This document shows, one piece after another, positions 1 through 35,476 of a DNA stretch of 37,897 bases. The stretch is from positions 1-37,897 of IMG/VR virus record IMGVR_UViG_3300044845_000699. One strand, written 5' to 3'. Both the position numbers and the translations under genes were made by a program. Below the pieces are notes generated by a model. It did no database searches, was not told the origin of the DNA, and was given only the letters and a program-made list of their open reading frames with translations. This DNA is from a virus. Within the stretch, counting starts at the first letter, position 1. Every line of letters starts with the position of its first letter.

Positions 1-305
1 ATGCGAGCACAAACCAAGCGGTCAGCGGCTCGAGTAGCATCGGCAGCACTGGGACCATCATCGCGGGCCGGAGTGACGCCCAGGTGCGGTTCCGCATCCA
101 CACACCGCTCGCCTGCACAGTCGTCTATCAGATCGGCTCACAGTATACCCCACTCTATGGCGACGATGAACCGGAAGAAGAAGTCACTTGGGGTGGTGAG
201 ATGACCGTCATCGTCACCGAGGAAGCCATCGTCACCCTCCCCGTCGCGGAAGACTTCACCAAAACAATCCGACTCAGGCGCATCATCTGGCACCCGTGGA
301 CGTGA
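1..305 (+). CDS. Tail-tip protein, C-terminal part (cut by window edge)
   Basis: The reading frame is already open at base 3 and ends at the TGA at 303-305, giving about 100 C-terminal residues. It is a near-copy of the C-terminus of the 240-residue protein at 34730-35452: the first 126 bases are identical and the later part differs at about 12 positions, which change residues such as QYTPLYGDD to QYIPIYGDE. The paralogue lies at the end of a tail operon, and this copy sits just before a fibre gene, so a tail-tip or fibre-anchoring role is likely by position. I recognise no domain. The ATG at base 1 is out of frame with this gene and is not a start. Confidence 0.8.
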   Translation, partial: ASTNQAVSGSSSIGSTGTIIAGRSDAQVRFRIHTPLACTVVYQIGSQYTPLYGDDEPEEEVTWGGEMTVIVTEEAIVTLPVAEDFTKTIRLRRIIWHPWT

Positions 306-339
306 TCACCGTCCTCTCAATTGACACGCGACCCCTCGC

Positions 340-4530: not shown

Positions 4531-5094
4531 ATGAGCATTACCGGCGACCACTGGCTCGACTCCGCCCTGCGTCGCCCCATCCAAGGCGGCGCAAAAATGC
4601 CCGTGCGTCGTTTCCTCGTCATCCATTTTACGGCTGGAGCCAGTGCCGAAAGCAGCATCGAATTTTGGCGAACGCCCGCCGCCAAAGGTGCCTCCGCTCA
4701 CCTCGTCATCGACCGCGACGGCACCGTCTATCAGACGCGCCCGTTTGATCGCACCTGTGGCCATGCAGGCGTGTCCCAATGGCAGGGGCACAAAAACCTC
4801 AATGCCTGCACCATTGGCATCGAACTCGCGAACGCTGGCGATGACGAGCGGCTCACGAAGCGTTGGTCAAAGCATCCAACCATCGAAGCTCGGCACAAAA
4901 ACGGCGGCCCAGAAAAGCAGTGGGAAGCCTACCCACTGGCCCAACTCGCCGCCTGCGAGCAAGTCGCCAAAGCCCTCGTCACTCGCTACCAGCTCGACGA
5001 CATCGTCGGCCACGACGACATCGCTCCAAGCAGAAAAAACGACCCCGGCCCGGCGTTCCCTATGGCCTCACTGCGGCAGTCGTGTGGCTTTTGA
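4531..5094 (+). CDS. N-acetylmuramoyl-L-alanine amidase (phage endolysin)
   Basis: This 187-residue amidase_2-type enzyme cuts the bond between N-acetylmuramic acid and L-alanine in peptidoglycan. The zinc ligands can be placed from the family pattern: His32 in FLVIHFTAG, His161 in IVGHDDIAP and Asp171 in KNDPGPAF. The ten-residue spacing of the last two matches AmpD. ASAHLVIDRDGTVYQ (about 55-69) is also typical. There is no signal peptide, so it would need the upstream holin for release. It is the last gene before the attachment-site region, the usual place for lysis genes at the right end of a prophage. Confidence 0.9.
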   Translation: MSITGDHWLDSALRRPIQGGAKMPVRRFLVIHFTAGASAESSIEFWRTPAAKGASAHLVIDRDGTVYQTRPFDRTCGHAGVSQWQGHKNLNACTIGIELANAGDDERLTKRWSKHPTIEARHKNGGPEKQWEAYPLAQLAACEQVAKALVTRYQLDDIVGHDDIAPSRKNDPGPAFPMASLRQSCGF

Positions 5095-5305: not shown

Positions 5306-6550
5306 ATGGGAAAGACGATTCAGAGTGTGAAATATGGCGGGGTGGAGGCGCGAGTTTCGCGCCGGGGGGATGGGCGTTTTGTCGTGCGGTGGCGGGAGGC
5401 GCGGCAGGGACGCTCGACGACGGCAATGACGCGGGAGGGGGCGCTCAAATTGGCGCAGTCCAAGGTGCGGGAGTTGGCCGGCAAAGCGGGATCGCGCATG
5501 GTCTCGGTGATCGAGGCGGAGGCGGTGCAAGGACTGCTGGAGATTGCGGGGTCGAGGTCGTTGCATTCGGTGGTGGAGGCGGTGCGCGATGCGGTGCGCA
5601 GGTGTGATGGGTTGGCGAATGTTTCGCGGGCGGTGGATGCTTGGCTAAAGGCGGGGCATGGGGCGCTGGATCGCTCATCGATGGCGGTGGCGGTGCCTCG
5701 TTTTTTGGCGCTGCATGCGCGGTCTTCGTGGGAGCATCTGGCGGGGCTGCGCAAGGAGCTGGAGGCGTTTGTGATGCGCTATGGTGAGGTGTCGGTGTGT
5801 GACCTCGACGTGGAGATGCTAACGACGTGGATCGGGCGGCCGCGTGAGGATGGTGCGGAGATCGGAGCGCGATTTTTTAACAATCGCTTGGCGTCGTGGA
5901 AGACGTTTTTGAATCGGTGTCGCGAATGGGGAATGCGTGCGCGAGGTGAGCCGCATCCGGCGGAGGTGATCAAAAAACGAAAGGAGGCGGACCCGGTGCC
6001 GGAGATTTTTAGCGTTGACCAGGCGCGGAAGATTTTGGCGCTGATTCGTGCGAAGGAGCCGCAGTGTCTCAATTACTTTGTGATTGGCTGTTGGATGGGT
6101 CTGCGTCCGTTTGAGATGCGCCGCATCACCTGGGCGATGTGGGACTGGGAGCGCGGTTATTTGGACCTGGGGCCGCAGGTGGCGCTCAAGACGATGCAGC
6201 AGCGTTATGTGCCGATCCCTGACAATGTGCGGGCGATGCTGCGCGGTGCCAATGCTGACGCACGCTGGGGCAAAAAGTGCAAACGTGCGGCTAAGCATTG
6301 TGTGCGGACGACGGATCAACCGCACCTCATGCGACTGCTCAAAGCAGCGAAGATGATGAGCGTGTGGCCGCAGGACATCATGCGGCACTCGTATATCTCG
6401 TATCGCCTAGCGCAGGGGCATGGACGTGGCCAAGTGGCGGAGTGGGCGGGCAATTCGGAAGGGGTGATCCGGAAGCGGTATCGCAGGCCGTTACGAAAGG
6501 AGGATGGCGACGCGTGGTTTGCCATCGGGGTTGAGACGCGGACGAATTGA
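5306..6550 (+). CDS. int: Tyrosine recombinase (phage integrase)
   Basis: This 414-residue integrase inserts and excises the prophage. An arm-binding-like N-terminus is followed by a core-binding domain (about 105-225) and a catalytic domain (about 232-395). Visible catalytic residues are Arg267 (GLRPFEMRR), Lys295 (ALKTMQQRYVPIP), Arg360 (DIMRHSYISYR) and Tyr392 (IRKRYRRP). Two usual histidines are replaced: the first of the HxxR box is Asp357, and the later one is Asn383 (WAGNSEG). The LRHS-like form is familiar to me from Verrucomicrobia and Planctomycetes integrases. The gene follows the att core directly and ends in a strong terminator. Confidence 0.92.
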   Translation: MGKTIQSVKYGGVEARVSRRGDGRFVVRWREARQGRSTTAMTREGALKLAQSKVRELAGKAGSRMVSVIEAEAVQGLLEIAGSRSLHSVVEAVRDAVRRCDGLANVSRAVDAWLKAGHGALDRSSMAVAVPRFLALHARSSWEHLAGLRKELEAFVMRYGEVSVCDLDVEMLTTWIGRPREDGAEIGARFFNNRLASWKTFLNRCREWGMRARGEPHPAEVIKKRKEADPVPEIFSVDQARKILALIRAKEPQCLNYFVIGCWMGLRPFEMRRITWAMWDWERGYLDLGPQVALKTMQQRYVPIPDNVRAMLRGANADARWGKKCKRAAKHCVRTTDQPHLMRLLKAAKMMSVWPQDIMRHSYISYRLAQGHGRGQVAEWAGNSEGVIRKRYRRPLRKEDGDAWFAIGVETRTN

Positions 6551-6998: not shown

Positions 6999-7442
6999 TT
7001 ATGCTTTACGGCGTTTTTTTTCGTAGCGTGCTTCGCTGCGGGGCTCGGTGACAGGTGAGGGGTTGGACGTCTCGGCTACCATGTCGTGCAGTAGTGTGGC
7101 TATGACGGGCGGCGGAGGCAGCCGCACAATGTTCGCAGTCGTTGGCACCGGTCCGGTGCTGGGGGAACGCTTTCGCGAAGGCGCAGGTGGAGCACATTCC
7201 TGGGATTCCAACAGATTGGCGTTTTTTTGTCCAGCTATCTTTTCCTCAGTGGGAGTGGCTGGGGATATTTGCAGCGGTAGCGATAGCGATCCGGTGGCGT
7301 CGAAGTAATCGAGCGCGGCAAGCAGGGAAGCCCTGGCTAAGGAGACGGCTTCGATGTGGGTTTTCTGTTCGAAAACAGCGATGCGGGCGGTGGTTTTTTC
7401 ATCCAGCCGGACACCAAGAATGCGGGCGTTTTTGATGCTCAT
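6999..7442 (-). CDS. Putative ribbon-helix-helix-like regulator
   Basis: This 147-residue protein runs leftward from the GTTAAC operator region. The first 45 residues (MSIKNARILGVRLDEKTTARI...) fit a beta strand followed by two helices, as in small ribbon-helix-helix DNA-binding proteins. The rest is Pro- and Ser-rich with a basic end (RYEKKRRKA) and looks disordered. It is transcribed divergently from another putative ribbon-helix-helix protein and away from the early operon, which is the position of a prophage repressor. Repressor is an inference; the C-terminus resembles nothing I know. Confidence 0.55.
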   Translation of the reverse strand: MSIKNARILGVRLDEKTTARIAVFEQKTHIEAVSLARASLLAALDYFDATGSLSLPLQISPATPTEEKIAGQKNANLLESQECAPPAPSRKRSPSTGPVPTTANIVRLPPPPVIATLLHDMVAETSNPSPVTEPRSEARYEKKRRKA

Positions 7443-7457
7443 CCCTACAAATACATC

Positions 7458-7522
7458 ACAAAGTTAACTTTGTCATCAAAAAGCGCTTGCGCGATAAGTT
7501 AACTTTGATAACAAAGTTAACT
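7458..7522. promoter_or_regulatory. Divergent operator region with three GTTAAC palindromes
   Basis: Site 1 (7458-7473) is a perfect 16-bp palindrome, ACAAAGTTAACTTTGT. Sites 2 and 3 form a larger perfect inverted repeat: GTTAACTTTG at 7498-7507 and CAAAGTTAAC at 7512-7521 around ATAA. All three sites share AAAGTTAAC or its complement. They fill the 82 bases between two divergent putative regulator genes, and site 3 ends three bases before the rightward start codon. This is the expected layout of a lysogeny switch operator. No clear -10 or -35 pair could be assigned. Confidence 0.8.
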
Positions 7523-7524
7523 CG

Positions 7525-7713
7525 ATGAAGAAACCAAACCGAATTACGATCACCCTGCCACCTGAGTTGGACGGCGAAGCGAGTGAATGCTGCGACAGAA
7601 CCGGCGTGAGCCTCAGTGACCTGGCCCGCCAAGGCCTAGTGCGAGTGCTGTTGGAGCTGAGACAGACGGGATCTGTGAAGCTGATGCAACTCCCTGTGAA
7701 GCAAGCCGCCTGA
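7525..7713 (+). CDS. Small CopG/Arc-type ribbon-helix-helix protein
   Basis: This 62-residue protein fits the ribbon-helix-helix fold: a strand (RITITLPPEL), helix A (DGEASECCDRTGV) and helix B (SLSDLARQGLVRVLLEL). Such proteins bind DNA as dimers through the strand. It is the first rightward gene beyond the operator, so it is a candidate Cro- or antirepressor-like early regulator. The start codon lies almost against the operator, leaving no room for a Shine-Dalgarno sequence; a leaderless or very short-leader mRNA is possible. Confidence 0.75.
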   Translation: MKKPNRITITLPPELDGEASECCDRTGVSLSDLARQGLVRVLLELRQTGSVKLMQLPVKQAA

Positions 7714-7815
7714 GTGAGGACCGACCCTGGCGCTACCAGATGGCGCGGATCGCGGCCTGAATTTTTGAACCGGCGGGACACCGGGGACGGGCAACAACCA
7801 AACACAAAACAACGC

Positions 7816-8061
7816 ATGAAGACCAACAATAACAACGAAGTGCTGCGGGCTGAAAAACTGCCGGAGCAAGTGAACGTGAGAAGACCCTTCGGGGCACCCC
7901 GGCGCAGTGCGCTGGGGCGCGGCCTGGGCGCACTGCTGCTGCGGCAGCAGCTCCAGGCGAGCGTGAGGCAAATGCCGAAGCTGCAACTGCCTGCATGGGC
8001 GGCGGACTTTGAGCCGGAGCACCAAAGCTGGCTCAAACGGGTGTGGCAGCGGGTGCGGTGA
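7816..8061 (+). CDS. Small protein with ParB-like LGRGLGALL (ParA-activating) peptide
   Basis: This 81-residue basic protein has LGRGLGALL at residues 33-41, encoded at 7912-7938. That string is the hallmark of the N-terminal peptide of chromosomal and plasmid ParB proteins, where its Arg or Lys stimulates the ParA ATPase. No ParB nuclease/CTPase domain follows; the rest is helical and ends WLKRVWQRVR. No ParA gene is visible in the window. It may therefore act on a host ParA, or supply this function to the separate ParB-like protein at 12396-13775. The ATG at 7816 was chosen because it gives a plausible N-terminus; an in-frame GTG exists at 7714. Confidence 0.6.
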   Translation: MKTNNNNEVLRAEKLPEQVNVRRPFGAPRRSALGRGLGALLLRQQLQASVRQMPKLQLPAWAADFEPEHQSWLKRVWQRVR

Positions 8062-8072
8062 AGCAACCCCCA

Positions 8073-8101
8073 CCCGGCGGGGCAACGCCGGGAACTTTTT
8101 T
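8073..8101 (+). terminator. Intrinsic terminator or attenuator
   Basis: A 7-bp stem (CCCGGCG at 8073-8079 with CGCCGGG at 8086-8092) is followed after three bases by six T. It lies between two genes of the early operon, so it may be a partial terminator that lowers or times downstream expression. Confidence 0.6.
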
Positions 8102-8124
8102 CCAACAACTCAGGAGGCTACAAT

Positions 8125-10094: not shown

Positions 10095-10852
10095 GTAACG
10101 AGCATCACGACATCGCTGCGCTGCGCGGCCAGGGCGGATTGAGCTTTGATGCGCTGCATCAAGGGCGTCGTGATGACGAAGAAACTTTGGCGAAGGACTC
10201 GCTGTTTGCGGTGGTCACGAATAACGCGGTGGCGGGTCGGCCACCCATCACCGAGATGGGGTATCGCGTCTGGATCATGGCGCTGCGCTTTTTTGTGGCC
10301 TGTCCACCCATGACTGCGGCGATGGTGCGGGAGATGCAACGGATCGCGGTGCGGTGCAATGGTGGGCTGGCACTGCCGAGAGCGGCGGACGCCGAGGCGG
10401 TGTTTGAACTGCTGATGCTGGGGACGCAGACGCCGTGGGAGACGGGGCGCCGCGTGACGCTGCTGGCCTATGCGCTGAATCGCGGCGTGGTGGTGCGTGA
10501 GGTGCTGCCGAGTTTTGAGAGCATCGGCCTGCTGTGGCAACTTAAGGCCGAGAACAAGCGGAGTGCGGTGTGTGCCGCGATGAACAAGCTGCGTGAGGAG
10601 ATGATGCGCACGGGCAAGCTGCCGCGAGGCTTTCGTTTTTGGTTTGAAAAATCGGACGAAGCGCGGGCTGTGTATGAGTCGGTGCAACTCGGGAACCACA
10701 ACCGCACCGGCGGCAGTAAGGAGACAGCGGAGACCTATGAGGGGGTGCCGATGAAGCAGGCATTTGCGCGGCTCGATGAGCGGCAAAGGAGACGTGTGCT
10801 CAATGAGCTGCACGAGGCGGGCGAGGCAAGACGGCTGGGGCTTACATTATGA
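10091..10852 (+). CDS. Hypothetical early protein
   Basis: The GTG at 10091 was chosen because its GTGA overlap with the previous stop matches the pattern of this operon; it gives 253 residues. The middle is helical and hydrophobic (YRVWIMALRFFVACPPMTAAMV) without being a clear membrane segment. The C-terminus (FARLDERQRRRVLNELHEAGEARR) is a charged helix. No known domain was seen, and its place before the replication genes suggests nothing firm. Confidence 0.65.
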   Translation: MSNEHHDIAALRGQGGLSFDALHQGRRDDEETLAKDSLFAVVTNNAVAGRPPITEMGYRVWIMALRFFVACPPMTAAMVREMQRIAVRCNGGLALPRAADAEAVFELLMLGTQTPWETGRRVTLLAYALNRGVVVREVLPSFESIGLLWQLKAENKRSAVCAAMNKLREEMMRTGKLPRGFRFWFEKSDEARAVYESVQLGNHNRTGGSKETAETYEGVPMKQAFARLDERQRRRVLNELHEAGEARRLGLTL

Positions 10853-11811
10853 AAACACGATCTCAAAATCCAGACCTGCGCGAGAAACAGACGTATCTCA
10901 TCCATGCTGTTATTTGTTCACCTTCACCAAATGCAAAGAGGCACTGCAACTGCGATGTTTACATCGTGATGTCTGATCTCTGTAAGCCGGACATTTTTAT
11001 TTGTGAGGCTAGAAGATGGACTCGAGGCGGATGGAATTCACCAATGCCCAATTTAGGCATTACTTGGGAGTTAGAGAGGAGTGATCTTGCAGAGTATTGG
11101 GCCAAGAAGATAAGGAATGAAAAACAGGCGGATGTGATGAACTTGAATGAAGTCCGGCAAGAGATGCGGGACTTTGTGAACGAATGCTTTAGCAATAAAA
11201 ATGTTTTATTTGCTAATGACTGTCTTTACAGATTTACCTGGGCACAACAAGCCAACCCATGGGATGGTTATTTTTGTGGATGGGGTAGGTGCAGTAGCGA
11301 CGAATACACCTGTGAATTGTTAGAGCCGGGGAACTGTTTTGATTCAAGTTTTGATGATTTTTCTTTCGGAATGTTCAGAGAGAGAACACGCCGAGAAACG
11401 GGCAAATTTTATGACATGGAATGGTGGGTGCGGAAGTTTAGGCCCCAGATCGCTGCATGGCATGTGATGCCGATCCGTTATGTGCAGCACTGGAAACCAA
11501 GAAATACATTACAGGAAGACCACCATCGCATGTGGCCCTCACATGACGTATTTGGTTACCCATCACCCAAACTGGGAGTCAGTGACTACACTAATTTTTT
11601 TGTGACTATTGAGCAGATTAGAAAACCTCTAAGTAAAAAACAAATAGAGTTGCAGCCGGTAGTTAAAGCAATCGAGCGGGCAGTGGCAAAGGGGAAGCTC
11701 AGCACGCGCATGGCACGGGCGTGGTTTAAAAAACAGCACATTTTGAACCGTCTCAATGACGGCATCAAGGCACGGAAAACACAACAACCAATAGAAGAAA
11801 TAGCAGCATGA
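10849..11811 (+). CDS. Unrecognised 320-residue protein, AT-rich cargo candidate
   Basis: This protein is rich in Trp, Tyr, Phe and Cys, with clusters such as CNCDVYIV and DDFSFGMF. It reads as a soluble protein with a basic helical C-terminus (KAIERAVAKGKLSTRMARAWFKKQHILNRLNDG). I recognise no family and no catalytic signature. Its DNA is much more AT-rich than the genes on both sides (frequent aaa, ttt, att and gat codons), yet it keeps four-base overlaps with both neighbours. That fits an imported accessory gene that was fitted into the operon, for example an anti-defence or host-interaction gene. The function remains open. Confidence 0.7.
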   Translation: MKTRSQNPDLREKQTYLIHAVICSPSPNAKRHCNCDVYIVMSDLCKPDIFICEARRWTRGGWNSPMPNLGITWELERSDLAEYWAKKIRNEKQADVMNLNEVRQEMRDFVNECFSNKNVLFANDCLYRFTWAQQANPWDGYFCGWGRCSSDEYTCELLEPGNCFDSSFDDFSFGMFRERTRRETGKFYDMEWWVRKFRPQIAAWHVMPIRYVQHWKPRNTLQEDHHRMWPSHDVFGYPSPKLGVSDYTNFFVTIEQIRKPLSKKQIELQPVVKAIERAVAKGKLSTRMARAWFKKQHILNRLNDGIKARKTQQPIEEIAA

Positions 11812-12395: not shown

Positions 12396-13775
12396 ATGAC
12401 TGAAACAAAAAACGAAGTGGTGGTGCGCTCTTTGGAGCGTGTGAAATTTTGGGAATGGAACCCACGCGGCTCGAATTATCGTGGCATGCCGGAGCTGGTG
12501 TCGTCGCTGGCCCGTGAGGGTCTGCAAGACGCGATCCATGTGTGGGAGCGGGTGGATGGTGACTATCTGCTCAAAGGGCACCGCCGCTTTGAGGCGATGA
12601 GCACGCTGGGCTGGACGGAGTGTGCGCAGGTGGTGCACCACTACGAGGACGAGGCGGCGGCGTATCGTTTCCTGCTGGAAGATCACGGGCACAATGATCC
12701 GCTGGATGCGGAAGAGAAGATCGTAGCGGTGGAGAACGGTGTGAAGCTGGGCATGCGAACGGACGAACTGGCTCCGAGTCTGGGTGTGTCTGCCGAGCGT
12801 GCGCAGCTATGGTTCGAACTGGGTGAGCAACTGCCGCAGGCGGCGAGAGCGGCGCTGAGCGATGGGAGGCTGAGCATGAACACGGCAGAGCTGCTGCTGG
12901 AGGTGCTGGACGCGAAGGACCGACGTGCAGCGACGCAGATGATCCTCAAGGATCTGGAGACCGGGGAGCCGATGGCGCATGGACAGGCAAAGGCCTACAT
13001 CCAGGCGCATTATGTGTTGCCAGAGAAGCGGCGGAAGGAGTGGCTGGCGCGTGAGATCGTCCTGCGCAAGAAATACAAAGTGGCGAAGGGTTATCACTTC
13101 GTGGAGTGGGCGGGGCGACGTGAATTTGCGATGGGTGAAAGCGGGCAACCGCAGCCGGAGTTTGAGTTTGGCGATGTGATGATGCCGAAGGATCGCGAAG
13201 GCCGCACCTGGGAACAGGTGGCACTGGAGATCGGGGTGCCGGTGTATGTGGTGGCGGCTCCGCTGCATGCGGAGGGGCATGTGCGGCTGGTGAACTCGTC
13301 CATGATGCGCGATGCGCTGAGTGTGAAGCCGCCGACCGAGGTGAGCGATGACGACGCCGATAACGAGCAGGAGACCACGATGGAGGTGCTGTCGCCGCCG
13401 GTGAGCACGATGCCGATCAAGACTGATGCCATGGAGGAGGTGGAGCAACTGCGGCAATGGCTGCGCACCAACCTGGGCGCAATTTATGACGAGCTGCTGG
13501 AGAACCCAACGCTGGTGATGACGAGTGCGCCGTGGGAGCCGCTGCGGGATTTCCTGGCGCATCTGACGACGGATGTGGACGCCGGAGCACTGGAGGCCTG
13601 GCGTGGTATCACCGACCGCGAGGCGGCGATGGAATGGATGCGCGGCGACAAGAAGCAACGCGCCCCGATGCGCTGCGCTCTGATGCTGCTGCTGTGCGCG
13701 GAGAGCGACTCGAGCGACGAGCCGATGAAGGTGATCAGCGAGGTGGCGAAGGCGATCGGGGTGGGGCCGATTTGA
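12396..13775 (+). CDS. ParB/Srx-fold (ParB-like nuclease/CTPase) domain protein
   Basis: This 459-residue protein has a ParB N-terminal domain in its first 110 residues: NPRG (22-25), PELVSSLAREGLQDAIHVW, then the phosphate-binding box GHRRFEA (61-67). A helical region follows (about 100-190) like the helix-turn-helix part of ParB, then an unrecognised C-terminus of about 260 residues. It lacks the LGRGL-type ParA-activating N-terminus of true ParB; a separate small protein at 7816 carries that motif. It could act in partition, in DNA modification or as a clamp on the repeats at 16954-17235. No Shine-Dalgarno sequence is evident. Confidence 0.75.
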   Translation: MTETKNEVVVRSLERVKFWEWNPRGSNYRGMPELVSSLAREGLQDAIHVWERVDGDYLLKGHRRFEAMSTLGWTECAQVVHHYEDEAAAYRFLLEDHGHNDPLDAEEKIVAVENGVKLGMRTDELAPSLGVSAERAQLWFELGEQLPQAARAALSDGRLSMNTAELLLEVLDAKDRRAATQMILKDLETGEPMAHGQAKAYIQAHYVLPEKRRKEWLAREIVLRKKYKVAKGYHFVEWAGRREFAMGESGQPQPEFEFGDVMMPKDREGRTWEQVALEIGVPVYVVAAPLHAEGHVRLVNSSMMRDALSVKPPTEVSDDDADNEQETTMEVLSPPVSTMPIKTDAMEEVEQLRQWLRTNLGAIYDELLENPTLVMTSAPWEPLRDFLAHLTTDVDAGALEAWRGITDREAAMEWMRGDKKQRAPMRCALMLLLCAESDSSDEPMKVISEVAKAIGVGPI

Positions 13776-17398: not shown

Positions 17399-18055
17399 AT
17401 GGCGCGGTCGCATGCAGAATCGGGGCTGGTGAAGCTCTACATGGCTGCGAAGGGGGTGGCCCTTCGCACGGCGCAACTCCATGCCAAGAACCGGCACCCG
17501 GATTATGTGGCGTTTTTGGCGACGCAGGGAGCGAAGGCGCTCGAAGTCGCCGACCCAAGTGAAGAGCAAAAACGCGCCCTGGTCGCCGTGATGGGTGGGC
17601 AGACACCACCCGGAGATCGGCTGGTGCATGTGGCCCCACCCGCGATGGAGAAACCACAGGACCAGTGGACGCCCGAGGAATACGCCGAGTGTCAGTGCTG
17701 GGCGGGCATGGTGGCTGCCAATGCGCAGCGGCAGGTCGCACTGGATCGCGGTGATCCCATGGCCGCCATCGGCTTCGTGAAAATCGCCGCCGACTCCCTC
17801 AAGTCCTACCACCTCGCCCGCCAGCGTCGCGTCCAGGCCGAGCTGGAAAGCGGCCGACTCCAGCCCATGTCCGCCTGGCAGGACGCCAAAGCCGCGCTCA
17901 TGAAATTCGTCTCGCTTTTCGCCTCCTTTGAAGGCCGCATCGCCCAGCGGGCGAACCCTGACAACCCCCAGCATGCCATGCGGGCCATCAGCCAGTGGCG
18001 CGAGGAGGAATTCAATCCCGCGCTCGAAAACGTCCTCGCCGAGCTGGCCTTGTGA
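17399..18055 (+). CDS. Putative terminase small subunit
   Basis: This 218-residue protein is the first gene of the late operon, upstream of the large terminase with only a methyltransferase between. The N-terminus (SGLVKLYMAAKGVALRTAQLHAKNRHPDYVAFLATQG) looks like a helix-turn-helix, as in DNA-recognition domains of small terminases, and the rest is helical and suited to oligomerisation. TTGACA lies 13 bases before the ATG and there is no Shine-Dalgarno sequence. No strong family signature is visible, so the call rests on domain layout and position. Confidence 0.6.
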   Translation: MARSHAESGLVKLYMAAKGVALRTAQLHAKNRHPDYVAFLATQGAKALEVADPSEEQKRALVAVMGGQTPPGDRLVHVAPPAMEKPQDQWTPEEYAECQCWAGMVAANAQRQVALDRGDPMAAIGFVKIAADSLKSYHLARQRRVQAELESGRLQPMSAWQDAKAALMKFVSLFASFEGRIAQRANPDNPQHAMRAISQWREEEFNPALENVLAELAL

Positions 18056-18059
18056 TCCC

Positions 18060-19292
18060 ATGACCGAAAAACACGCCAACCTCGAACTCTGGAAATCCGC
18101 CCCCCTCGCGGAGATCAACCATCCTCATCCCAAAAATCCCCGCGTCATTCCAGACGCCGACAGCGAGGAAGTCCGCACCCTGGATGCCAGCCTGGAGCAC
18201 GACTACTTTGATCCGCTCATCTGGAACAAACGAAACCGCATGTGGGTCTCCGGTCACGTTCGCGCCTGGCGCATGACCGCCCTCGGCTTCACCCATGCCG
18301 ATGTCGTCGTCGTCGATTATGATGAAGAGACGCACCTCGCCCGCATGCTGGCAGCCAATGCCCACTCCGGCAAAAACGACGAAGATAAGCTCGATGCCCT
18401 GCTTGCCAGCCTTCGCGATGCCTCGGTCGATCCCGTTTTGGCGCTTCTCTCCGCGCTGCCACCCGCGCCGCCACCACCCGTAGGCGATGCCGACGCCGAG
18501 CCCGACCTCGACCGCGCCGCCGAGCTCAATAAAATCTGGCAGGTGGAAACCGGCCAGATATGGCAGATCGGCCCCCACCGCCTCATGTGCGGATCGAGCA
18601 CCGAAGCTACCGATGCCGCTCGCCTGCTCAACGGCGCAAAGCCCCGCCTCATGATCACCGATCCGCCCTATGGCGTCGAGTATGATCCAGACTGGAGGCT
18701 TGAAGCTGGAATAAATAAACCAGGACAGATCCTAGCAAGTGGGAAAGTCATGAATGATGACATCTGCGATTGGACGGGAGCCTGGCAACTCAGTCCGTCG
18801 TCGGTCTGTTACATCTGGCATGCGGGCCGTTACGCGGGCACGGTTCAGACGTCCATGGAGACAGCCGGATTCACTACTCGCTCCCAGATTATTTGGGCAA
18901 AGCCATCCCTCGTGATGGGACGTGGAAACTATCATTGGCAGCACGAGCCCTGCTGGTATGGCGTCCGCAAAAACGCCACCGCTGAGTGGATAGGAGACCG
19001 GAAGCAAACCAGCCTTTGGCAAATCGCCAACATGCACCGGACGCAAGGTGATGTGGACGATGGCAAAACCGTTCACTCCACCCAAAAGCCCGTCGAGTGC
19101 ATGGCTCGTCCGATGCGCAACCACTCCGGCGACGTTCATGATCCCTTCCTCGGCTCCGTCACCACCATGGTCGCTGCCCAAAACCTGCACCGCATCTGCT
19201 ACGGCATGGAGCTCAGCCCCGACTACTGTGCCGTCATCCTCGACCGCATGCAACGCGCCTTCCCTGATCTTGAAATCAAGCGCGTCGCATGA
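18060..19292 (+). CDS. ParB-domain DNA methyltransferase (beta-class, N6-adenine or N4-cytosine)
   Basis: This 410-residue fusion has an N-terminal ParB-like domain (about 15-125: HPHPKNPRVI, SGHVRAW) and then a methyltransferase. Motif IV DPPY is at 201-204. A variable target-recognition region lies in the middle, and motif I-like DPFLGSVTTMVAA (from about 361) lies near the end. DPPY before the FxGxG motif is the beta-class order. Motif I has Val where Gly is usual (GSVTT for GSGTT). It probably modifies phage DNA against host restriction or marks DNA for packaging, as it sits between the terminase genes. Bases 18685-19060 differ in composition from the flanks. The ATG at 18060 follows the terminase stop by four bases. 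Confidence 0.85.
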   Translation: MTEKHANLELWKSAPLAEINHPHPKNPRVIPDADSEEVRTLDASLEHDYFDPLIWNKRNRMWVSGHVRAWRMTALGFTHADVVVVDYDEETHLARMLAANAHSGKNDEDKLDALLASLRDASVDPVLALLSALPPAPPPPVGDADAEPDLDRAAELNKIWQVETGQIWQIGPHRLMCGSSTEATDAARLLNGAKPRLMITDPPYGVEYDPDWRLEAGINKPGQILASGKVMNDDICDWTGAWQLSPSSVCYIWHAGRYAGTVQTSMETAGFTTRSQIIWAKPSLVMGRGNYHWQHEPCWYGVRKNATAEWIGDRKQTSLWQIANMHRTQGDVDDGKTVHSTQKPVECMARPMRNHSGDVHDPFLGSVTTMVAAQNLHRICYGMELSPDYCAVILDRMQRAFPDLEIKRVA

Positions 19293-34733: not shown

Positions 34734-35452
34734 TTTACGGGAAACTAGTCATCGACGTGCGCAGCTCCTACGTCAGCGTAGAGACCTGCCCCATGTTCGT
34801 GGATAGTGAGGTCACTGATAAAATTTACGGCAGCAGAGCTACCGAATACACATTCGAATTTGGCTCCTACACCGACACCTCCACGGTCGCGGCGGAGAAT
34901 GTCGGCGACTCTGAATCCTGCCCCACATTCGAAGGCAGCACCACCTTTGACCCTGACTATAATGAGCCAGATGGCTACGGAGAGATCATCTCCAGCACCA
35001 CCACCTACAGCGCACCCGTCACCCGCTCCACCGTGCGAGGAGACCTCCCCGCAATAGACTGGAGCGAGTGGGGCTTCAGTGGCCTAAGTTACGAAGCGTC
35101 CAACGGAGGGCTGTTCGAGCACCTCTATAACTACGACGCCGTGATCTATGCGAGCACAAACCAAGCGGTCAGCGGCTCGAGTAGCATCGGCAGCACTGGG
35201 ACCATCATCGCGGGCCGGAGTGACGCCCAGGTGCGGTTCCGCATCCACACACCGCTCGCCTGCACAGTCGTCTACCAGATCGGCTCACAGTATATCCCGA
35301 TCTATGGCGACGAAGAACCAGAAGAAGACATCACTTGGGGTGGTGAGATGACCGTCATCGTTACCGACGAAGCCATCGTCACCCTCCCCGTCGCGGAAGA
35401 CTTCACCAAAACAATCCGCCTCAGGCGCATCATTTGGCACCCGTGGACGTGA
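34730..35452 (+). CDS. Tail-tip protein, paralogue of the truncated gene at the left edge
   Basis: This 240-residue acidic, Ser/Thr/Tyr-rich protein ends IRLRRIIWHPWT. Its last 100 residues match the gene at 1-305 closely, and the nucleotide match runs through the stop codon. The N-terminal part (MIYGKLVIDVRSSYVSVETC...) has no recognised domain. In the left copy a long fibre gene follows; here only a fragment of that gene's start region survives. The gene is probably the last structural gene of the second prophage's tail operon. Confidence 0.7.
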   Translation: MIYGKLVIDVRSSYVSVETCPMFVDSEVTDKIYGSRATEYTFEFGSYTDTSTVAAENVGDSESCPTFEGSTTFDPDYNEPDGYGEIISSTTTYSAPVTRSTVRGDLPAIDWSEWGFSGLSYEASNGGLFEHLYNYDAVIYASTNQAVSGSSSIGSTGTIIAGRSDAQVRFRIHTPLACTVVYQIGSQYIPIYGDEEPEEDITWGGEMTVIVTDEAIVTLPVAEDFTKTIRLRRIIWHPWT

Positions 35453-35476
35453 TCACCGTCAAAAAGGTGGCGCGTG
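35453..35476 (+). pseudogene. Remnant of a fibre-gene start fused by a 56-base deletion
   Basis: After TCACCGTC (35453-35460), shared with the left copy at 306-313, the sequence jumps to a match with 370-385 (AAGAAGGTGGCGCGTG, one mismatch). The left copy carries CACCGTC at 307-313 and again at 363-369. Recombination between these 7-base repeats would remove bases 314-369, including TTGACA and the fibre start codon. What remains encodes TVKKVAR, then all similarity ends. Confidence 0.65.

Follow-up and report, generated by a model that had tools for sequence, protein, structure and literature searches.

A conserved ParB-type peptide in a small accessory protein of a temperate phage, and its possible action on host ParA

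The window, by which we mean the whole stretch of DNA that was analysed, is a single virus record of IMG/VR, 37,897 bases long, and its plus strand encodes at 7816-8061 an 81-amino-acid product (translation: MKTNNNNEVLRAEKLPEQVNVRRPFGAPRRSALGRGLGALLLRQQLQASVRQMPKLQLPAWAADFEPEHQSWLKRVWQRVR) that is given the working name P81 here. The gene lies in an early region, to the right of a pair of divergent genes at 6999 (-) and 7525 (+). Between these two genes a AAGTTAACTTTG-like sequence occurs three times in overlapping palindromes, likely forming the operator of the phage switch (Table 1). The 35-nt element that precedes P81 recurs as GAATTTT(T)GAACCGG..CCGGGGACGGG in L013 (from position 4886), L015 (from 6336), L012 (from 7190) and L028 (at about 5500), where the gene behind it is an unrelated one in the case of L013 and L015, and a truncated P81 gene in L028; the element thus stands upstream of differing early genes among related phages. 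The element matched no RNA family and folded no better than random sequence, which leaves a structured RNA unsupported. The terminator-like hairpin on the 3′ side of P81 is kept in L006 and L011; chance alone would yield 1.5 matches of this type over the 1.65 kb that were scanned.

Table 1. Coordinates of the features discussed in the text.
Feature	Position	Strand	Remarks
Integrase-like gene	5306-6550		Weak match
Operator-like palindromes AGTTAACTTTG ... CAAAGTTAACT	7459..7522	.	Between divergent genes 6999 (-) and 7525 (+)
Ribbon-helix-helix-like protein, 62 aa	7525..7713	+	Weak RHH_5 match, E 0.0019; first gene right of switch, directly upstream of P81
Conserved DNA element CTGAATTTTTGAACCGGCGGGACACCGGGGACGGG, 35 nt	7757..7791	+	Before P81
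P81 gene	7816..8061	+	81 codons; second gene right of switch region; net charge +9, calculated pI 11.8
Conserved segment L(R/K)AEKLPE, residues 10-17	7843..7866	+	Variable-length linker to core
Invariant 13-residue block ALGRGLGALLLRQ, residues 32-44	7909..7947	+	Alignment of relatives
LGRGLGALL, ParB-type ParA-binding motif	7912-7938	+	Inside invariant block
Conserved C-terminal part MPxLxLPxW...FEP....WLK.V, residues 53-81	7972..8058	+	Alignment and predicted helices
Terminator-like hairpin, 7 G-C pairs then T run	8073..8092	+	Directly 3′ of P81; consensus match only
Phage ParB-fold protein without ParA-binding peptide	12396..13775	+	Foldseek, family searches

The start of the P81 gene is supported by its most distant relative (58% identity), carried by a record that appears here as both L007 and L012, because an AAAGGAG ribosome site precedes the homologous ATG in L012. 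In agreement with the preliminary description, which had presented P81 as an 81-residue protein without a ParB domain, no family in Pfam, PHROGs, NCBIfam or PADLOC matched it, and the ParB N-terminal (CTPase) domain was not found in Pfam, NCBIfam and PHROGs searches at E values up to 1. A fold search with the P81 model returned no match, comparison with solved structures gave insignificant matches only, tblastn against known phages found nothing, and neither the family searches nor the fold search connected P81 to ParB. The model itself consists of helices only and has a mean pLDDT of 65.8, a low confidence that also applies to its details: the stretch preceding the peptide described below is predicted to be unstructured, the motif runs into a helix, and C-terminal helices are predicted at residues 60-64 and 67-80. 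No dimerisation domain was identified. P81 is best pictured as a small, basic and, as far as such a model can indicate, largely unfolded accessory protein.

Residues 32-41 of P81 read ALGRGLGALL. The ParA-binding motif of ParB has been defined as (L/F/I)G(K/R)G(L/F/I) (PMC12704722) and as LG(R/K)GL (PMC9712426), and the LGRGL at residues 33-37 is an instance of the former. True ParB sequences contain GLGRGLEALL (Thermus Spo0J, 1vz0) and GLGRGLSALL (Caulobacter ParB, 6t1f), while AKGLGRGLGALL occurs in two contigs with a bacterial parB (L036 and L050). P81 agrees with the ParB motif at all positions, the xALL extension included, so that the identification of residues 33-41, LGRGLGALL, as a ParB peptide in the preliminary description is borne out by the sequence and the published motif. 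The peptide is internal in P81 rather than N-terminal.

Viral contigs contained six relatives of P81, with aligned identities of 100, 99, 98, 95, 91 and 58%, making this a narrow family of seven records with the window included. Further profile scans of viral contigs and genomes for distant relatives yielded no new members, and a scan of Akkermansia phage Moulinsart, the closest named phage, for LGRGL-like motifs found none with the full motif. LGRGL is invariant in 7 of 7 sequences, the relative at 58% identity included, and its loss among homologues, which the preliminary description had named as counter-evidence, is not seen. The string sits within ALGRGLGALLLRQ, the longest invariant run of the alignment (p = 0.011 for a run of that length by column shuffling). 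Between P81 and L012 the codons of this block comprise 8 identical, 5 synonymous and 0 non-synonymous pairs, as against 21, 21 and 30, respectively, over all aligned codons; outside the block, non-synonymous differences affect 30 of 59 codons. This codon pattern indicates that selection maintains the motif block even in the most distant relative, and that P81 is a real gene selected at the protein level. An overlapping minus-strand frame of 210 codons (7476-8108) was considered as the coding alternative and rejected, the plus-strand P81 frame being the one under protein-level constraint. Conservation reaches beyond the ParB motif, through LLRQ, and into the C-terminal part of the protein, and so the residues that would contact ParA are not singled out.

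How much the bare string can tell depends on the collection in which it is sought. In shuffles of the P81 residues the pattern LG[RK]G[LI]x[AS]L[LIF] has an expectation of 1.8e-6 per shuffle, and the match is beyond chance for P81 taken singly. Among 2.9 million viral contigs, the codon pattern for [AG]LGRGLxALL gave 15 matches: 6 from the P81 family, 2 from ParB and 7 apparently non-coding, most of these seven having a longer open reading frame in another frame. A sister codon pattern gave 27 in viral contigs, again with 6 from the P81 family and 2 from ParB, together with 1 in another open reading frame (L051, a long and apparently coding phage frame) and 18 apparently non-coding, which seem to overlap phage genes, those for tape-measure proteins among them, on the opposite strand or in another frame. 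Coding and non-coding frames were distinguished here from frame lengths and by eye. Because the exact string, LGRGLGAL or LGRGLxALL, appears in seemingly non-coding frames about as often as in P81 and ParB together, a single family that carries it in a coding frame by chance would not be surprising in the viral collection. P81 might then be an early accessory protein of another kind, such as a regulatory peptide or one for host takeover, in which a conserved helix rich in Leu, Gly, Arg and Ala binds some other partner. This explanation, to which we assign a considerable likelihood clearly short of even, gains from the extension of the conserved block past the motif and from the lack of a structural or family tie to ParB in the searches above; it is weakened by the rarity of such a match in any one given protein and by the selection that acts on the whole motif in the most distant relative. 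Beyond the bare string, that selection on the block is the chief evidence.

The distribution of P81 among related phages is that of an exchangeable gene. In L013 and L015 (records of 38.8 and 39.4 kb) the downstream genes are near-identical and P81 is absent, while L028 retains at 5565-5621 an 18-codon remnant (MTTQQTKELKAELRKEAA) in which the LGRGL core is gone but the gene start and some of the LKAE segment survive, with the homologue of the 9550 gene coming straight after. This pattern of absence and decay implies that P81 is dispensable in this phage group, and by such comparisons it is an accessory early cassette. The window also encodes a 320-aa early protein (10849-11811) that is intact in L009 and matched over its last 49 residues only in L010, L013 and L016, and that looks like a swapped cassette too. 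The position of P81 directly behind the ribbon-helix-helix-like gene, near the operator-like palindromes and before the terminator-like hairpin, could also mean that it has nothing to do with partition and serves as a co-regulator or antirepressor together with the 7525 protein and the divergent 6999 gene. We think this unlikely, since the small gene upstream varies among P81 carriers (L006 and L012) and L013 has the 7525 protein at 97% identity without P81, so that the two proteins form no fixed pair.

The preliminary description had further noted a ParB-like protein at 12396 that lacks the peptide, and the absence of a visible ParA; both observations stand. In Foldseek searches the 12396 protein matched M. 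xanthus ParB (E 9.5e-10) and also Noc and KorB. Its model is good in the N-terminal half only and places the beginning of the fold close to residue 8, so that a ParA peptide would have no space ahead of it; the relatives likewise lack one. A genome scan for ParB-like proteins of the 12396 type found none. No ParA of the AAA_31 family was detected in 12 records, of which some are fragmentary, and the stretches examined contained no deviant Walker A motif; in none of these records was P81 seen to be encoded beside parA. A ParB/Noc/KorB-like fold without a peptide, and a peptide without such a fold, invite the idea of a split partition system, raised in the preliminary description, in which P81 would supply the ParA-activating peptide to the phage's own 12396 protein. 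The comparison of genomes speaks strongly against it. L008 combines an identical P81 (100%) with a ParB-like protein of 34% identity, and L013 and L015 combine ParB-like proteins of 98-100% identity with the absence of P81, which shows that the two genes are inherited independently. In addition, a survey reports that phage and orphan ParB-fold proteins mostly lack the ParA-binding motif (PMC12704722), and therefore a split need not be invoked to account for a 12396 protein without the peptide. With an integrase-like gene (a weak match) in the phage and no ParA found, we consider a split system very improbable. A separate observation concerns the DNA methyltransferase at 17928-19292 (weak methyltransferase matches only), whose N-terminal region looks ParB/Srx-like by eye; fusions of ParB folds to methyltransferases are reported to be enriched in prophages (PMC12704722).

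Among named phages the closest terminase is that of Akkermansia phage Moulinsart (31% identity), which suggests a host in the Verrucomicrobiota, and the phage, a temperate one, probably infects members of this phylum. Near the ends of the record, window positions 1-313 are a 96% copy of 35148-35460, with different genes following each copy; the explanation could be a tail-gene cassette that is duplicated or that switches, or else an effect of assembly.

Because no phage ParA was found, any ParA target of P81 would be the host's. We favor, over coincidence, a reading in which P81 is a mimic of the ParB peptide that works in trans on host ParA, and we hold its chances to be close to even. In its support are the motif match with the xALL extension and a block that is invariant down to 58% identity, with synonymous changes only; moreover, P81 presents a ParB-type peptide in the absence of a ParB fold, in a position that the low-confidence model suggests is exposed. 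A ParB domain is not required for the activity, since a synthetic ParB peptide of 20 residues is enough to stimulate the ParA ATPase with DNA (PMC12462528). The same study reports that the basic and hydrophobic residues of the peptide act at the ParA dimer surface and that full stimulation is achieved best with two juxtaposed peptides (PMC12462528). Weighing against mimicry are the internal position of the peptide, the failure to identify a dimerisation domain, the narrowness of the family and a chance rate of the string in the viral collection that allows for one unrelated family.

In the mechanism that we propose, the constrained core of P81 would copy the ParA-activating peptide of ParB, with a ParA-type ATPase of the host as its target in trans. 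The interface of the ParA dimer would receive the LGRGLxALL helix, whose arginine would favor ATP hydrolysis on DNA; ParA would leave the nucleoid, and host chromosome segregation or ParA-linked replication control would be perturbed, early in infection or in lysogeny. We infer host ParA as the target, and likewise the binding, the stimulation of its ATPase and the benefit to the phage. The full proposal, that a swappable early protein of a temperate phage mimics the ParB peptide and drives host chromosomal ParA off the nucleoid, is offered tentatively, at somewhat less than an even chance. In the literature searched we found no description of host ParA being targeted by a phage protein. If the proposal holds, the ParA-activating peptide would be able to act as a short linear motif, portable and open to capture by viruses, a ten-residue motif would give a virus a route to host chromosome segregation or replication control, and P81 would provide a natural minimal tool for observing the effect of ParA activation alone on the cell. 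If it does not, P81 would warn against deducing a function from nine matching residues, even where these are conserved.

With ParB/Spo0J (TIGR00180), P81 has in common the 9-10 residue ParA-binding peptide (A/G)LGRGLxALL. It differs in its size of 81 residues, in the internal location of the peptide and in lacking the CTPase fold, the helix-turn-helix and the C-terminal dimer domain. PomX, PomY, McdB and TlpT are other ParA/MinD-activating proteins (PMC13170346, PMC7993993, PMC12204374). They are unrelated proteins, and they stimulate ParA-type ATPases by way of short, unstructured and often basic stretches. Their role is to position cell structures, unlike what is proposed for P81, and the likeness to P81 is one of description. 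The nearest precedent is ParZ of Borrelia, a non-ParB protein, possibly derived from a phage, that controls ParA through a ParB-type peptide, while the ParB homologue of the same genome is without it (PMC9712426). ParZ, however, is a bacterial chromosomal centromere-binding protein that is encoded with parA and carries its peptide at the N-terminus, whereas P81 is found on a phage, with no parA and no known DNA-binding domain, and is likened to ParZ by description. Finally, the 12396 protein belongs with the orphan and phage ParB-fold proteins (PMC12704722), having a ParB fold, no ParA partner and no motif, and P81 is the reverse of these proteins: the motif without the fold.
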